In this document: piece after piece, positions 23,943 to 30,031 of the stretch
Numbering within the stretch: position 1 is the first letter of the stretch
Layout: each line of letters starts with the position of its first letter
NCBI RefSeq assembly: GCF_001429185.1
Contig: NZ_LMIW01000015.1
Span: 1-64,000 of the forward strand
Direction of reading: 5' to 3'
Source: Terrabacter sp. Root85
Lineage (GTDB): Bacteria > Actinomycetota > Actinomycetes > Actinomycetales > Dermatophilaceae
DNA length: 64,000 nucleotides
Notes under the pieces: generated by a model
Seen by the model: the letters and a program-made list of their open reading frames with translations, nothing else
The model's database searches: none
What the model was told of the DNA's origin: nothing
Position numbers and translations under genes: made by a program

Positions 23943-24009
23943 GACCTTAGGCGTCACCACCGACAAGCCTCATCGACGAAGTGAACGCCGTCAACATGTT
24001 TGGGGAGTT

Positions 24010-24020
24010 CGCCCACGGCG
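24010..24020. promoter_or_regulatory. ClgR-type box before the PopR/ClgR-like gene
   Basis: CGCCCACGGCG preceded by TT and followed by TA fits the remembered ClgR consensus CGCYNANRGCG at every fixed position. It lies 81 bp upstream of the regulator start and suggests autoregulation. Confidence 0.65.
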
Positions 24021-24101
24021 TACGCCGTCGGCCGCCACAGTCGGCACGATCCGAGTGCTCGCGTGCGACGCTGGACGGACGCACCGAGATCGGAGACCGC
24101 C

Positions 24102-24479
24102 ATGACCCAGCTCGCCCCGCGCCCCCAGACCACCTTCCGGACGCCGCTGCTGCGCGAGGTCTACGGACGGCTCCTGCGCGGCCTGCGCACCCGTCAGGGA
24201 CGCACCCTCGCCGAGGTCGCCGCGCGCGCCGGCATCTCGGTCGCCTACCTCTCCGAGGTGGAGCGGGGGCTCAAGGAGCCGTCGTCCGAGGTGCTCGAGG
24301 CGGTCTGCGTCGCCCTCGGCTCCAGCATCACCGGCCTCGTCGGCGCTGCCCACCGCGAGCTGCGCGACCTCACCTCCGAGGGCACCGGAGGTCGCGTCCT
24401 CGACCTCACCTCGCGCGTCGGGACGAGCATCGCGACCCCCTCGGACGCAGCGACGGGCCCGGTGCTGCTCGTCGCCTGA
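24102..24479 (+). CDS. XRE-family regulator of the ClgR/PopR type
   Basis: 125 residues with a Cro/CI-type HTH at about 20-75 ([24 protein letters not shown], then [16 protein letters not shown]), which closely follows ClgR and PopR, activators of clp genes in Streptomyces and Corynebacterium. The C-terminus ends in LLVA; hydrophobic C-termini ending in Ala are used by ClpP-type proteases to degrade ClgR and PopR, giving feedback. A ClgR-type box precedes the gene, and the same box plus a PopR-type box precede the clpP pair 5 kb away. ATG 24102 has GGAG upstream. Whether it is ClgR or PopR cannot be settled from this window. Confidence 0.8.
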
Positions 24480-24497
24480 GCGGCACCGGGCCCGTCG
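24451..24497. terminator. terminator overlapping the end of the regulator gene
   Basis: A 15-bp perfect stem (24451-24465 with 24483-24497, CGACGGGCCCGGTGC) whose left arm encodes part of the regulator's C-terminus, with a 17-nt loop containing the stop codon. It separates the regulator from the convergent peptidoglycan hydrolase gene. Confidence 0.75.
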
Positions 24498-24512
24498 TCG
24501 ACGGGAGCCGGA

Positions 24513-25466
24513 TCAGTCGATGAGGCTGCCCCACGTGTTGTTGCCCACGACCCCGTCGACGACCAGACCGGTCTTGGTCTGGTAGGCGCGCACCGCCGAG
24601 TACGTTCCCGGGCCGAACGACCCGTCCACGGTCAACGAGTAGCCGGCGTCGACGAGCTCACGCTGCAGGCCCTTGACGGCCTCCCCGCTCGCGCCCTGGC
24701 GCAGCACGGGCAGCAGCGAGTACCACGTGTTGTTGCCGACGACGCCGTCGACGGACAGCCCGTGCGCGGACTGGTAGCTGCGCACGGCGGAATCCGTTGC
24801 GGGGCCGAAGGACCCGTCGGCGGTGACGCTGCGGCCCGACGCCCTGAGCATGTACTGCAGCGTGCGCACGGCCGCCCCGCTGCTGCCGCTGCGCAGCACC
24901 GGCAGGCTCGTCTCCGTCGTGCCGCCGCCCGTGCCACCGCTGCCGTACTTCGACAGCACGTCGTTGGCGTACGCGATGCGCTGGGTCGTCGCGCACGTGC
25001 CGCAGCGCTCGAACTTCTGCATGAAGACGGTCGTGGCCGTGCTGACCGACGTCGCCGCCCTGAGGTCGGCGAGACCGTAGGAGGAGAACGTCGACAGCTC
25101 GTACCACGTGAAGTCGAGCTGGGCCGCGAGCGCGTAGCGGCTGCGCCCGCTGAGGCCGGCGTACCAGACCATGTTGTCGCGGGAGTCGGTGTCCCAGCGC
25201 CCGCCCTCGCTCCACTGGGCGATGCCCATGCCGGGGCCACCCGGCTGGTTGGCGTAGGGGTTGATCGGGCTGCCCGACTCCTGGATGAGGTTGCCGACGA
25301 TGCCGGCGGACTGGCGTTCGGTCAGGCCCTTGGACACGAAGTAGTCGAAGGCGATCTCGTCGTTCGAGGCGGCCAGGGCGCTCGGCGCCGCGACGACGCC
25401 GAGCACGGCGACCGCTGCCGCGGCGAGGAGCCCCGCGAGGCCCCTGCGGGTGGTGCTGGTCTTCAT
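24513..25466 (-). CDS. secreted phage-tail-lysozyme-like protein with two peptidoglycan-binding domains
   Basis: 317 residues. Sec signal peptide 1-34 (cut near ALAAS); then a domain matching phage tail lysozyme (AFDYFVSKGLTERQSAGIVGNLIQESG, GMGIAQWSEGGRWD) at about 36-180, where the Glu of QESG is the probable catalytic acid; a Gly/Thr linker; then two PG_binding_1 repeats (about 195-255 and 260-317), each with the ADGSFGPATD and VDGVVGNNTW pattern. Predicted to cleave peptidoglycan outside the membrane. RBS GGAGG 6 nt upstream. It lies 13 bp after the amidase gene, last of a three-gene wall-hydrolase unit. Confidence 0.87.
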   Translation of the reverse strand: MKTSTTRRGLAGLLAAAAVAVLGVVAAPSALAASNDEIAFDYFVSKGLTERQSAGIVGNLIQESGSPINPYANQPGGPGMGIAQWSEGGRWDTDSRDNMVWYAGLSGRSRYALAAQLDFTWYELSTFSSYGLADLRAATSVSTATTVFMQKFERCGTCATTQRIAYANDVLSKYGSGGTGGGTTETSLPVLRSGSSGAAVRTLQYMLRASGRSVTADGSFGPATDSAVRSYQSAHGLSVDGVVGNNTWYSLLPVLRQGASGEAVKGLQRELVDAGYSLTVDGSFGPGTYSAVRAYQTKTGLVVDGVVGNNTWGSLID

Positions 25467-25479
25467 CTGATCCTCCGAT

Positions 25480-26580
25480 CTACGCGAGCAGCCTGCTCCA
25501 CGTGTTGGAGCCCACGACCGCATCGGCGTCGAGGGCGTGGGCGGTCTGGAAGGACTTCACGGCCGAGACGGTGCCCGGGCCGAACGCGCCGTCGACCGTG
25601 ACGGCATACCCCTGCGCGGTGAGCGCGGTCTGGACCCCGCGCACCGCGTCGGAGGTCTGGTCCTGGCTGCACGTGACCGCCAGGGGCGCCTCCCACGTCG
25701 CGCGGCCGATGACGCCGTCGGCGGTCAGGCCCTCGGACTGCTGGAAGGACACGACCACCGCCCTGGTGCCCGAGCCGAAGGCGCCGTCGACCGTGACGGC
25801 GCGGCCCGAGTGGCGCAGCAGGTACTGCGCGGTCGTGACCCGGAACCCGCTGTTGCCCTGCTGCAGCGTCGGCCACGTGCGTGTCGGCGCCGGCGGCGGG
25901 TTGCTCGTGCCGAGCCGGGCCGCCACCTCGGAACGCAGCTGGGGGAGCTTGGCGTAGAAGGCGTCTCCCGGGCACTCGGTGTCGAGGAAGTCGCGGTGCC
26001 CGTAGATGTCCTCCGGCCCCAGGCCGTACGCCTGGCACAGGTAGGCGCAGAGCGTGACGAGCGCGTTCCACTGTGCCGCCGTCGGCAGGGCCGTCGTGTA
26101 GGTGCCCTCGTTCTCGATGCCGATCGACGTCGGGTTCTGCCCCGTGCAGTGGGCGCCGAGGGGGAAGACGGTGCTCGACCCCGACCCCAGCCCCTCGATC
26201 GACCGGTGGCGACCCTCCATGGCGTAGCCGCCGCGGCTGATCGTGAACTGCTGCCCCGAGTCGATCCAGCCCCGGGCGAAGTGCCACTGCTGGATGTTGC
26301 GGGCGAGGGAGTATGCCGCCGACTGGGAGTAGTCGGTCGTGTTCGCCGAGGCCGTGTGGTGGACGAGGATCTTCTGCGGTGGCCCGGTCATGCTCACCGT
26401 GCCCGTCGCCGGCTGGGCGCCCCACGTCGCGCACGACGCGATCGTCGGGCGGGCGACGGCCGTGACGGCCGCGTTCGAGGGAGCCGCCTTGGCGACCCCG
26501 AGGGCTCCCGCCGCGCCGACGCCGAGCGCGCCGACGAGGAGGGAGCGACGACCCAGGGCGGGAGCGGGGTTCACCGTCAC
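25480..26580 (-). CDS. secreted N-acetylmuramoyl-L-alanine amidase (PGRP/amidase_2) with two peptidoglycan-binding domains
   Basis: 366 residues. A twin-arginine signal (GRRSLLVGALGVGAAGALG) suggests Tat export. The amidase domain (about 45-220) has zinc ligands in ILVHHTAS and YGHRDFLDTECPG (His and Cys), and SIGIENEGTY with a probable catalytic Glu. Two PG_binding_1 domains follow (about 235-295 and 300-366). It cuts the bond between MurNAc and L-Ala in peptidoglycan. GTG 26580 overlaps the stop of the M15 gene (GTGA); GTG 26574 is an alternative. Middle gene of the wall-hydrolase unit. Confidence 0.9.
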   Translation of the reverse strand: MTVNPAPALGRRSLLVGALGVGAAGALGVAKAAPSNAAVTAVARPTIASCATWGAQPATGTVSMTGPPQKILVHHTASANTTDYSQSAAYSLARNIQQWHFARGWIDSGQQFTISRGGYAMEGRHRSIEGLGSGSSTVFPLGAHCTGQNPTSIGIENEGTYTTALPTAAQWNALVTLCAYLCQAYGLGPEDIYGHRDFLDTECPGDAFYAKLPQLRSEVAARLGTSNPPPAPTRTWPTLQQGNSGFRVTTAQYLLRHSGRAVTVDGAFGSGTRAVVVSFQQSEGLTADGVIGRATWEAPLAVTCSQDQTSDAVRGVQTALTAQGYAVTVDGAFGPGTVSAVKSFQTAHALDADAVVGSNTWSRLLA

Positions 26581-27326
26581 CAGCCCGCGCACGCGTCGGC
26601 GTCCCAGGCGATGCTCGTCCGGATGTCGACGTGGGCGTGGTCGTCGTGCGCCGGGTAGCCCGGTCCGAAGATGCCACCGAAGCCGGCGTAGCGCGCCTGC
26701 TTGGCGATGCTGCAGATCGAGGTCGCGCTGTCGCCGGGGACGAGGTCGAGGGCGCCGCCGCTCAGGTGCACGCTGTTGCTCGCGCCGCCGACGGAGGCGT
26801 TGCACGCCGAGTCGCGGTAGCCCGATGTCACCTTGAGTGGGTGGTCGCCGAGCTGGTGGCGCAGCGCCTCGGCCCGCCACAGGGCGCGCTTCATGTTCTC
26901 CTTGTTGGCCGCTGTGCCGGTGAACCCCCGGCCGCAGTTGTCGCTCGCCTCGGCGTAGGTGAAGTGGAGCGGCGTGCAGTCCGGGTCCTGCAGGGCGTAG
27001 ATCTTCGAGAAGGTCGCGGGGCCGGCGATGCCGTCCGCGGTGAGGCCGTATGCCTTCTGGAAGTTGGCGACGGCCGTCTTGGTCTGTGCCCCGAAGGAGC
27101 CGTCGATGCCCATGACCTGGCCGCGCGGCACCCAGCCGGCGACGCGGATCTGCAGCTGCGTGACGTCGGCTCCCGAGGTGCCGGAGCTGAGGGTGCGGGG
27201 CCACGAGTAGCACTCGTCGGCATGGGCGGCCGGGGCCGTGGCGGTCACCGTGGCCGTCGCGACGCCGAGGCCTCCGAGAGCGAGGGCGACGGCGGCGATG
27301 ACATGGGTCAGTCGGTTCCTGCGCAT
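26577..27326 (-). CDS. secreted zinc D-Ala-D-Ala carboxypeptidase-like M15 peptidase with N-terminal peptidoglycan-binding domain
   Basis: 249 residues. Sec signal 1-36 (cut near AHA-DE); PG_binding_1 about 42-105 (GIDGSFGAQTKTAVANFQ); then an M15 domain with SVHLSGGALDL (H-x6-D zinc ligands) and DHAHVD near the end (final His ligand), as in the Streptomyces albus G carboxypeptidase. It trims stem peptides of peptidoglycan. Several cysteines suggest disulfides. AAAGGGA lies upstream of ATG 27326. First gene of the three-gene unit; its stop overlaps the amidase GTG. Confidence 0.9.
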   Translation of the reverse strand: MRRNRLTHVIAAVALALGGLGVATATVTATAPAAHADECYSWPRTLSSGTSGADVTQLQIRVAGWVPRGQVMGIDGSFGAQTKTAVANFQKAYGLTADGIAGPATFSKIYALQDPDCTPLHFTYAEASDNCGRGFTGTAANKENMKRALWRAEALRHQLGDHPLKVTSGYRDSACNASVGGASNSVHLSGGALDLVPGDSATSICSIAKQARYAGFGGIFGPGYPAHDDHAHVDIRTSIAWDADACAGW

Positions 27327-27434
27327 GCGATGTCCCTTTCGTGAGTTGCCTGTTCCTGCACGTCGAGACTGGCGGAGGCGCGCGGCAGGCGCGCGCCGAG
27401 AGCATGGGGAGCACTCCCCATCGCGCCGGACCAT

Positions 27435-27772
27435 GCCCCTCGACGTCGCCCCTCGACGTCGCCCTCAACCTCGTCGCCGGACTCGTCGGCCTCGATCGCC
27501 CTGCGCGAGCGCGACGGATCAGCGAGCGTCTCGGCGGCACCCGACGCGCGGGGTCGCGATGGCCGCAGTCGACCTCGGCGTCATGCTGCGCGACACCGGC
27601 GAGCTCGCTGAGGCACGCACCCATCTCGAGCGGAGCGTCGCCATCTTCCACGACATCGCCGACCGGGCCGGGCTGACCGAGGCCCTGGAGGAGCCTGGGT
27701 CGCCGCGCGGAGGCCGAGCAGCACTGGCACGCGGCGCTGCGGATCCACGTGCGGCGTGGTGAGCGGCGTCGC
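27435..27772 (+). pseudogene. frameshifted fragment of a TPR-containing protein
   Basis: Three consecutive frames give one plausible protein: ALNLVAGLVGLDRPAR...ISERLG, then AAVDLGVMLRDTGELAEARTHLERSVAIFHDIADRAGL, then LGRRAEAEQHWHAALRIHVRRG. The middle and last parts are tetratricopeptide repeats as at the C-terminus of AfsR- or LuxR-type ATPase regulators. A 13-bp tandem duplication at 27435-27447/27448-27460 is a likely frame-breaking event, and a second shift falls near 27690. No start, promoter or full domain remains. Confidence 0.65.
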
Positions 27773-27774
27773 CG

Positions 27775-28070
27775 GCGCTCGCGACGTACTCGCCGGCAAT
27801 CCACACGATGCTGCCGTCGACCGCGGCGGCGCCGTAGTCACCCCACCGGGTGCGCGGCGGGTTGCCCTCCTGGGCCTTGTAGCTCGTGAACCCGTCGTCA
27901 GTGGCCTGGCCCGCCGCGGCGACGGAGATGGGCCCGGTGCCCACGAGGGCGTCGATGGCGGCATACCCGGCGCTCAGTACGTCGTCGCGTCGGTGTAGCT
28001 GAACGCCATGACCCCACGACCGCTCGGCGTGGCGCCGACGGCCGGGTAGGTCAGGTCGGCGCCGGGTCAC
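27775..28070 (-). pseudogene. frameshifted remnant of a secreted protein
   Basis: On the minus strand one frame reads PGADLTYPAVGATPSGRGV then FSYTDATTY and stops; the next frame continues AGYAAIDALVGTGPISVAAAGQ and later RTRWGDYGAAAVDGSIVWIAGEY. Together they look like the C-terminal part of a secreted actinobacterial protein with a GDYGAA-V-DG pattern (sialidase or beta-propeller-like, not identified further). The frame break is near 27975. No intact start or end is visible. Confidence 0.55.
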
Positions 28071-28137
28071 TCGGCCTTGCACCCAGCACTCTGGCACCCA
28101 CCCGCTGCGCCTGTCCACGAAGATCGCCCGGTCCACC

Positions 28138-28749
28138 TCATCCCCCGACGGGCACCACCTCCGTGGCCCGCTCGATGACGTGGTCGACGATGCCGAACTC
28201 CACGGCCTGCTGGGCCGTCAGCACCTTGTCCCGGTCGGTGTCGAGGCGGAGCTGGTCGACCGACCGGCCGGTGTGGTGGCTCAGCACCTCCTCGACCTGC
28301 GCGCGCACCCGCAGGAGCTCGTCGGCCTGCAGCGCGAGGTCGCTCACCGTCCCCTGTCCGCCCGCGGACGGCTGGTGCAGCAGGACCCTCGAGTGACGCA
28401 GGGCGAAGCGGCGTCCCGGCTCCCCCGCCGCCAGGAGCACCGCGGCGGCGGAGGCCGCCTGCCCGAGGCAGTACGTCGCGACCGGGGCCTGGACGAGCTG
28501 CATCGTGTCGTAGACGGCCATGAGCGCCGTGAACGAGCCGCCCGGGCTGTTGACGTAGAGCGACACCTCCCGGTCGGGAGCGACGTAGGAGAGGTGGAGC
28601 AGCTGGGCCATGACGACGTTGGCGACGCCGTCGTCGATCTCGGTGCCGACGAAGATGATCCGTTCCTGGAGCAGCCGGCTGTAGATGTCGAAGCTGCGCT
28701 CCCCCGCCGGGGTGCGCTCGATGACGTACGGGATCGTGTAGCTGCTCAC
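28138..28749 (-). CDS. clpP: ATP-dependent Clp protease proteolytic subunit, ClpP4-like
   Basis: A 203-residue Clp[10 protein letters not shown] is the oxyanion strand, the catalytic Ser lies in [11 protein letters not shown], His in [10 protein letters not shown] and Asp in TDRDKVL. The usual AASMGA around the serine is changed to AASAAA. GTG 28749 overlaps the stop of the upstream clpP (GTGA). The pair is not followed by clpX, unlike the housekeeping clpP1P2 locus, so it most likely corresponds to the accessory clpP3P4 operon of Streptomyces. It should form hetero-oligomeric chambers with its partner and work with ClpX or ClpC. Downstream lie only pseudogene remnants. Confidence 0.9.
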
Positions 28750-29354
28750 CGCAGTCCCACCTTCCGCTCGGCACCGCCGGGGCGGACGTCCGCGAGGGAG
28801 CTGACGACATGGTCGACGATGCCGTATGCCGCCGCCTCCTCCGCACTGAACCAGCGGTCGCGCTCGCTGTCGCGGGTGATCTGCTCGACGGTCTGTCCCG
28901 TGTGCTCGGCCTGCAGCTCGTTGACCCGGCGCTTGACCGCCTTGAGGTTGGCGGCCTGGACCTCGACGTCGGCGGCCGTCCCCTGGATGCCCGCGGACGG
29001 CTGGTGCATCATGATCCGCGCGTTGGGCAGGGCGAAGCGCTTGCCGGGCGTGCCCGCGCCGAGGATGAACTGGCCCATCGAGGCCGCGAACCCCACTGCG
29101 AGAGTGGAGACGTCGTTGGGGATGAGCCGCATCGTGTCGTAGATGGCCAGGCCCGCGGTGACGGAGCCGCCGGGACTGTTGACGTAGAGGCTGATGTCGG
29201 CGCGCGGGTCGCGGGCCGAGAGCAGGAGCAGCTGGGCCGTGATCCGGTTGGCGATCGGGTCGTCGACCTCGGCCCCGAGGACGATGATCCGCTGGTGGAG
29301 CAGCTGCATCGACAGCTGGTCGTCCAGCGGCGAGGGCGTGAGTGGTTCGGTCAT
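28746..29354 (-). CDS. clpP: ATP-dependent Clp protease proteolytic subunit, ClpP3-like
   Basis: A 202-residue ClpP with canonical motifs: [13 protein letters not shown], catalytic Ser in [11 protein letters not shown], His in [14 protein letters not shown], Asp in [11 protein letters not shown]. Short N-terminus, no long propeptide. GGGAG lies a few nt before ATG 29354; a CACGCT box 6 nt upstream could be a weak leaderless -10. Upstream are a perfect TCTGCC-N3-GGCAGA (PopR-type) and a CGC-N5-GCG (ClgR-type) box, about 49 and 64 bp from the start, well placed for activation. First gene of a two-gene operon. Confidence 0.92.
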
Positions 29355-29395
29355 GCTCCCAGCGTGGCCCGGCCGCCCTCCCATGGGAGTCCCGC

Positions 29396-29410
29396 TCTGC
29401 CACGGGCAGA
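29396..29410. promoter_or_regulatory. PopR-type box TCTGCC-ACG-GGCAGA before clpP
   Basis: A perfect TCTGCC-N3-GGCAGA palindrome. This is the sequence I recall as the PopR recognition site of the Streptomyces clpP3clpP4 operon. Its centre is 49 bp upstream of the clpP start. Confidence 0.7.
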
Positions 29411-29412
29411 TT

Positions 29413-29423
29413 CGCCGACAGCG
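29413..29423. promoter_or_regulatory. ClgR-type box CGCCGACAGCG before clpP
   Basis: Matches CGCYNANRGCG at all fixed positions and is flanked by TT and TA as in the box before the ClgR/PopR-like gene at 24010-24020. It directly abuts the PopR-type box and a GGCATACGCT decamer on the minus strand. Confidence 0.65.
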
Positions 29424-29482
29424 TATGCCGCCCTGCCGATATCCGTTGGCGCGCGCCGTCCCCGGGCACCACGATGGGCGGC

Positions 29483-30031
29483 ATGGCCGGAAAGACGTAT
29501 CCCGACATGTGGGTCGACCCCGAGGACGACCCGCGGTCGCAGGAGTCACTCCTCGGGGACGAGCGCACGACCCTGCTCGACTACCTCGTGAACTACCGCC
29601 TCACGCTGGAGCTGAAGTGCTCCGATCTGACGGCCGAGCAGCTCGCGACTCGCTCGGTGCCGCCGTCGACGATGTCGCTGCTCGGACTCGTGCGCCACCT
29701 CGCCCAGGTCGAGCAGACGTGGTGGCGGCGCGTCATGGCCGGGGAGGACACGCCCTACCTCTATCGCCGGGCCGACGACCGCGACGCCGACTTCACCGGT
29801 GCCGTCGGCGAGGACGCCGTCGTCGCGGAGGCCTGGGCTCGCTGGCGCGAGGAGACGGCCAACGGCGACGCCTTCGTGGCCGACGCGGAGTCGCTCGACC
29901 TCGTCAGCCTCGACCCGACGAACCCGATCAACCTGCGCGAGGTCCTCGTCCACCTCATCGAGGAGTACGCCCGTCACTGCGGTCACGCGGACCTGCTCCG
30001 CGAGTGCGTCGACGGCGCCACCGGCCAGTGA
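29483..30031 (+). CDS. DinB superfamily protein (DUF664)
   Basis: A 182-residue four-helix bundle protein of the DUF664 branch: [44 protein letters not shown] and the C-terminal [23 protein letters not shown]. The three histidines ([23 protein letters not shown]) form the expected metal site. Family members act as metal-dependent thiol transferases (bacillithiol/mycothiol S-transferase relatives). ATG 29474 is an alternative start 3 codons earlier; neither has a clear Shine-Dalgarno. A second DUF664 gene lies at 57871-58413. Confidence 0.85.

Follow-up and report, generated by a model that had tools for sequence, protein, structure and literature searches.

The window analysed here, a stretch of 64,000 nucleotides of Terrabacter sp. 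Root85 (contig NZ_LMIW01000015.1), contains the two clpP genes clpP3 and clpP4 and, convergent to them, a gene for a 125-residue helix-turn-helix (HTH) activator (Table 1). This locus very probably represents the actinobacterial backup-protease module PopR-clpP3P4; here the activator PopR would act on tandem dyads, would most likely be autoregulated and would be controlled by ClpXP1P2. The PopR backup system is already known from Streptomyces. According to excerpts of the respective papers, Streptomyces PopR activates clpP3P4 (PMC9775585, PMC9765437, PMC12607617), ClpXP1P2 degrades both PopR and ClgR, and failure of ClpP1P2 leads to expression of clpP3P4 (PMC9765437, PMC12607617).

In Terrabacter, PopR (24102-24479) would bind to the tandem 15-bp dyads at positions 29396-29425 and recruit the RNA polymerase to clpP3P4. 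Its C-terminal LVA makes PopR a likely substrate of ClpX together with the housekeeping protease ClpP1P2. As long as ClpP1P2 works, PopR would be kept scarce and clpP3P4 silent; upon failure of ClpP1P2, PopR should accumulate and switch on the spare ClpP core. At a further dyad (24008-24022) PopR most likely boosts its own synthesis, which would sharpen the switch.

Tandem operator upstream of clpP3

On the clpP strand, the DNA ahead of clpP3 reads TACGCT-GTC-GGCGAA-TCTGCC-CGT-GGCAGA, that is, two abutting 15-bp dyads. An initial annotation of this DNA had listed three boxes, TCTGCCACGGGCAGA at 29396-29410, CGCCGACAGCG at 29413-29423 and CGCCCACGGCG at 24010-24020, all of which were confirmed at these positions. 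The PopR and ClgR motifs which it had given agree with those given in parts of PMC9775585 and PMC2905415. In an excerpt of the former, the PopR site of S. lividans is quoted as TCTGCC-3N-GGCGAATCTGCC-3N-GGCAGA and the ClgR site of this species as GTTCGC-5N-GCG (PMC9775585). The operator of the window has the same register as the quoted PopR site and three of the four half-sites are identical; the inner half GGCGAA of the distal dyad already belongs to the quoted site. Because the window aligns with this layout, the CGCCGACAGCG box is to be read as the distal dyad of a single tandem PopR operator and not as an unrelated second site. The former idea of two activator boxes side by side is not supported in that form, since both dyads lie in one 15-bp register that matches one known double site. 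By homology, binding of PopR to the clpP3 tandem is near certain.

The operator was then followed in other genomes. The named set comprised the best 80 of 571 ClpP3-like stretches and was biased to close relatives and Streptomyces; the dyad patterns were drawn up after some sites had been seen, and order-1 Markov resamplings served as controls. Upstream of clpP3, the strict tandem core with a spacing of 15 bp occurred in all 12 loci of the Terrabacter clade, in 55 of 70 other named loci and in 12 of 27 further loci of the family, compared to 0.1-0.2 expected from resampling. Each of the other spacings between 11 and 21 bp was found in none to six loci. A looser single dyad was present upstream of clpP3 in 26 of the 27 other family loci. 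A pattern search for the composite site TCTGCCN3GGCAGATTCGCC (up to one mismatch) disclosed matches in 19 out of 394 genomes of the class, and one match was seen with the reversed control (in G361). A clpP motif followed 235-370 nt downstream of the site in 14 of the 19 genomes and in seven of eight exact matches.

Some counts would also suit chance matches in GC-rich DNA. CGCYNANRGCG occurs in the window at chance level (15 seen, 11.5 expected, standard deviation 3.5), the PopR palindrome with one mismatch is rarer in the genome (G000, 4.87 Mb, 15 contigs) than its reversed control (11 versus 48 matches), and the tandem core GCYN3RGC-N6-GCYN3RGC, found once in the window, appeared at least once in 42 of 100 shuffles and is not significant alone. 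The exact TCTGCCN3GGCAGA exists at a single place in the genome. Genome-wide rarity was nevertheless not accepted as proof: with one mismatch allowed, the reversed control gives more hits than the pattern, and the core ClgR motif does not rise above chance in the window. Two further candidates were discarded. The ten one-mismatch palindromes do not make a PopR target list, as all of them are overlain, on one strand or the other, by an open frame of 80 codons or more, though such a cover says little because the DNA is GC-rich; a ClgR regulon derived from a loose consensus (126 genome matches, control 16) was unusable. As judged by comparison, it is the conserved register upstream of clpP3 elsewhere that lifts the credibility of the boxes above chance. 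As position and register are kept across genera, and the dyad ahead of popR in part of the loci, we deem a chance origin of the boxes scarcely conceivable.

The operator is situated in a 128-bp intergenic region which separates clpP3 from a divergent mycothiol-S-transferase (MST)-like gene at 29483, and could be common to both genes. That it also, or even mainly, serves the divergent gene appears improbable, since the operator precedes clpP3 in Streptomyces and other relatives as well. Between operator and clpP3 start there is a CTCCCATGGGAG palindrome (29376-29390), which is not kept in the nearest relative, G480 (locus L180).

Identity of the regulator

Two genes of the ClgR/PopR type are present in the genome, one of them being that of the window. 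The second paralogue, for which the initial annotation had advised to look, was found elsewhere; it is ClgR, located behind pgsA and cinA and ending with ASAA. The window gene might itself be taken for the ClgR orthologue, since its best NCBIfam model is ClgR (NF041677, 78 bits) and it is 51% identical to the ClgR of the same genome over 68 residues. However, its score is below the cut-off of 170 (as is that of the genome's ClgR with 126.5 bits), it does not possess the SLGY recognition-helix signature of the ClgR rows, and it is the paralogue following pgsA and cinA that is the ClgR. A tree (81 rows, 87 columns, rough bootstrap) that included the SLGY signature columns placed 18 SLGY rows, among them the genome's ClgR, on one side of a branch (99/97), with the window gene outside. 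The latter, showing SVAY at the recognition helix, grouped with Intrasporangiaceae rows in a PopR clade (13 rows, 100/98; 17 rows, 100/100). A ClgR orthologue is therefore highly unlikely, and by synteny and tree the gene is assigned to PopR.

In 77 out of 80 named clpP3 loci a PopR-family gene lies downstream on the opposite strand, i.e., convergent, in 61 of them at a distance of 1.4-2.0 kb. L087, in which no PopR gene was seen, ends at a contig end. In a sample of 119 genomes of the family, clpP3 and a PopR-type gene could be paired by eye at a distance of up to approximately 5 kb in at least 33 genomes, in every case convergent. Among the matches listed, G428, G463 and G488 have both genes, not adjacent to each other, and G419 has clpP3 without PopR, its one match being ClgR-like. 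G434 was rejected as a case of an orphan PopR, as the tree groups it with ClgR. By this comparison the arrangement in the window is the standard convergent popR-clpP3 order, stretched by inserts. The claim that a PopR/ClgR-family gene is present was thus corroborated by the Pfam HTH matches, the tree and the synteny, and the matching boxes link this gene to clpP3P4.

The window PopR ends with LLVA. All 77 PopR proteins of the named relatives end with AA (68) or VA (9), and these termini fit the model of degradation by ClpXP1P2. Four ClpP matches were obtained in the genome, two each in the window and on contig C13. The latter contig also has, some 2.3 kb beyond clpP2, an open reading frame with a ClpX-type zinc finger and a GP[TS]GxGK[TS] P-loop (motif only), so that the clpP1P2-clpX locus sought elsewhere consists of clpP1P2 plus a clpX-like frame on C13. 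In the window, a motif script did not find this P-loop between 18001 and 40000, which confirms for that segment that the clpP3P4 pair is without a neighbouring clpX.

A number of findings weigh against the assignment to the PopR-clpP3P4 module. The distal outer half-site is TACGCT here and TCTGCC in Streptomyces, and within the 41 bp ahead of clpP3 no recognisable -10 element was detected. The strict 15-bp tandem core is absent in 15 of the 70 other named loci and in 15 of the 27 other family loci; strict tandems at other spacings occur in the 70 named loci (12 bp, five; 19 bp, six; 16 bp, two; 21 bp, one). L047 and L097 have clpP3, the flank being without a PopR gene, and among the matches listed G417 has PopR with no clpP3 detected. 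Five of the 19 class-wide matches of the composite site had no clpP found downstream, among them L023 and also L029, which is near a contig end. In L023 (G339:C382:56771-56791) an exact tandem PopR-type operator has no clpP within 1.5 kb. By eye, the L023 gene in the clpP direction resembles a metallo-beta-lactamase-fold hydrolase. The PopR of G417 (L211, G417:C1:3029000-3035500) is approximately 80% identical to that of the window over the matched part, with no clpP3 in the 6.5-kb stretch.

The popR promoter and a possible input of ClgR

The third box of the initial annotation, GTTCGCCCACGGCG, is located about 80 bp ahead of the popR ATG. An identical box, 130 bp from the anchor codon, was found in L039, L040, L043 and L180, and variants of it in L041, L042, L045 and L046; L044 and L048 disclosed no close version upstream of popR. 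With the pattern TYYGCCNNNGGCRRA (up to one mismatch), the dyad was detected in 55 of 78 popR upstream regions, where about 1.7 were expected, and a looser dyad in 9 of 11 regions of the clade (0.2 expected) and 17 of 27 of the other family members (1.1 expected). The popR promoter site was not mentioned in the literature searched, which excluded the primary PopR papers that may describe popR autoregulation; the conserved dyad is possibly unreported. Autoregulation by PopR is, from the sequence comparison, the likeliest reading of this box.

An alternative is dual control, in which ClgR reads the distal clpP3 dyad and the popR box, and PopR the proximal dyad, so that ClgR would act on clpP3P4 both directly and via popR. 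In favour of this, the genome has a distinct ClgR gene, and the popR box, as read, fully matches the Corynebacterium ClgR consensus WNNWMGCYNNNRGCGWWS quoted in part of PMC2905415. In the Terrabacter clade, 9 of 12 loci have a distal clpP3 dyad that agrees with CGCYNANRGCG; none of the 55 tandem sites of the other named loci does so, and among the other family loci 2 of 12 do. In addition, there are five genome matches to TTCGCYN3RGCGYA, three in the clpP1P2, clpP3P4 and popR promoters and two inside coding frames; the narrower TTCGCYN3RGCGWA occurs only in the popR box and at 29411-29425, the two sites from which it was derived. As such patterns were built after seeing the sites, their rarity is partly circular, and with 126 genome matches to the looser ClgR consensus (control 16) a fit to the consensus alone weighs little. 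Moreover, the clpP1 boxes of the clade, which read T[GC][CT]GC[CT]CA[CG]GGCGAAC in 15 of 15 genomes (that of the window and 14 others), all keep GTTCGC, whereas the distal clpP3 dyad has ATTCGC in place of the GTTCGC of the ClgR site, deviates from the Corynebacterium consensus at two end positions and contains the inner half GGCGAA that the quoted PopR site already possesses. We regard dual control as possible, though rather unlikely.

A PopR-type outer half, TCTGC[CT], is seen in six of the 15 clpP1 boxes. For this reason half-site letters alone cannot assign the regulator, and since the dyad geometry is common to PopR and ClgR, a CGC-N5-GCG match needs comparative support before ClgR may be called. 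A link between the half-site letters and the residue (P, A or Q) that precedes Tyr in the recognition helix was suggestive, with rows that are not independent, and is not claimed. An input of ClgR at the popR and clpP3 dyads is possible. Of the proposed control by both regulators, the version with separate PopR and ClgR boxes is not supported as first put; what is left is that the distal outer half of the clade fits ClgR and that a ClgR paralogue exists. A tentative scenario, which we hold to be unlikely, is that in the Terrabacter lineage the distal clpP3 half and the popR promoter have drifted to one common ClgR-type form, TTCGCC-N3-RGCGTA, which resembles the clpP1P2 box. In that case clpP1P2, popR and clpP3P4 would all be driven by ClgR, with PopR adding a push at clpP3P4. 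This would constitute a coherent feed-forward loop with both activators destroyed by the protease they report on, and loss of ClpP1P2 would at the same time induce repair of the main core and the spare core.

Gene content of the locus

The frames of clpP4 and clpP3 overlap by 4 nt. Window ClpP3 is 95% identical to ClpP3 of Terrabacter sp. MAHUQ-38. The catalytic His of ClpP4 is replaced by Gly (RVLLGQP) in 64 of the 80 named loci, nearly all of Streptomyces or near kin, and retained (RVLLHQP) in 15, i.e., nine loci of the Terrabacter clade, Oerskovia, Cellulosimicrobium and Rhodococcoides. The window ClpP4 retains it. In clpP4 of Terrabacter aerolatus (L045) an in-frame stop lies just ahead of the active-site His motif, which is either a real lesion or a sequencing error.

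The three wall hydrolases noted between the partners were verified by Pfam (Phage_lysozyme2, Amidase_2 and Peptidase_M15_3) and are of the secreted type. The hydrolase content between clpP4 and popR is variable in 11 close relatives, with an M15 peptidase in five, a lysozyme2-type enzyme in four and a full-length amidase in two. The suspected pseudogene scar is plausible, given pieces of 299, 84 and 89 bp that match G480; the piece of about 300 bp is 85% identical to this nearest relative, in which the flanking pieces are wider apart.

Table 1. Features of the PopR-clpP3P4 locus in the Terrabacter window
Feature	Position	Strand	Basis or remark
Dyad in popR promoter, AGTTCGCCCACGGCGTAC; 15-bp dyad 24008-24022	24006-24023	+	Sequence; shared with relatives
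popR, 125-aa HTH activator gene, C-terminus LLVA	24102-24479	+	Pfam HTH_3/HTH_31; NCBIfam ClgR model 78 bits; tree; convergent synteny
Phage_lysozyme2 + peptidoglycan (PG)-binding wall hydrolase	24513-25466	-	Pfam; inserted between popR and clpP4
Amidase_2 + PG-binding wall hydrolase	25480-26577	-	Pfam; start codon uncertain
Peptidase_M15_3 + PG-binding wall hydrolase	26577-27326	-	Pfam
Putative gene-remnant (scar) region	27340-28140	.	Pieces of 299, 84 and 89 bp match G480 (L180) at 80-89%
clpP4, 203 aa, GTG start	28138-28749	-	Pfam CLP_protease; NCBIfam PRK00277/PRK12553 above cut-off
clpP3, 202 aa	28746-29354	-	Pfam and NCBIfam matches
Proximal dyad TCTGCC-CGT-GGCAGA (clpP strand)	29396-29410	-	41 bp ahead of clpP3 ATG
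Distal dyad TACGCT-GTC-GGCGAA (clpP strand; ClgR box of the initial annotation)	29411-29425	-	15 bp centre to centre from proximal dyad
Mycothiol-S-transferase-like gene (MST/DinB), divergent from clpP3	29483-30031	+	Pfam PF04978 MST, E 1.3e-43

Comparison with known systems

The module and its operator geometry could be traced to Terrabacter, Humibacillus, Intrasporangium, Oerskovia, Cellulosimicrobium, Rhodococcoides and further members of the family to which the window belongs. By this, non-mycelial hosts with smaller genomes are now available for asking for what purpose a spare ClpP core is kept. The dyad in the popR promoter provides a testable prediction of feedback or of cross-talk with ClgR.

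The PopR-clpP3clpP4 module of Streptomyces lividans was reportedly the subject of work by Viala et al. in 2000 and 2002. Like the Streptomyces module, the window has a bicistronic clpP3P4, a convergent PopR-family gene nearby (in the Streptomyces loci examined), a separate clpP1P2, a tandem operator in the same register and an activator with a C-terminal AA or VA. In contrast to that module, popR and clpP4 are separated by three wall hydrolases and a gene remnant, the distal outer half-site reads TACGCT rather than TCTGCC, and ClpP4 has the catalytic His, which the Streptomyces rows do not have. From the operator end to clpP3 the distance, measured to the ATG, is 41 bp in the window; for the other named loci, measured to the matched start, it is approximately 65-200 bp. 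The popR box is GTTCGCCCACGGCGTAC in the window, compared to forms such as TTCACCCAGGGCAGA in the Streptomyces-type module.

For ClgR, the Corynebacterium consensus is given as WNNWMGCYNNNRGCGWWS in a part of PMC2905415 and the Bifidobacterium site as TNCGCT-N3-GGCGNAA in a part of PMC9004370. With the ClgR regulon the locus has in common a related HTH protein, the same dyad geometry and a popR box that, as read, fits the Corynebacterium consensus. It differs in that the window gene falls outside the ClgR clade, the proximal dyad is of the PopR type, and the genome's ClgR and its ClgR-type clpP1P2 box lie elsewhere. Taken together, the locus is a well-supported member of the PopR-clpP3P4 modules with a lineage-specific form of the operator.

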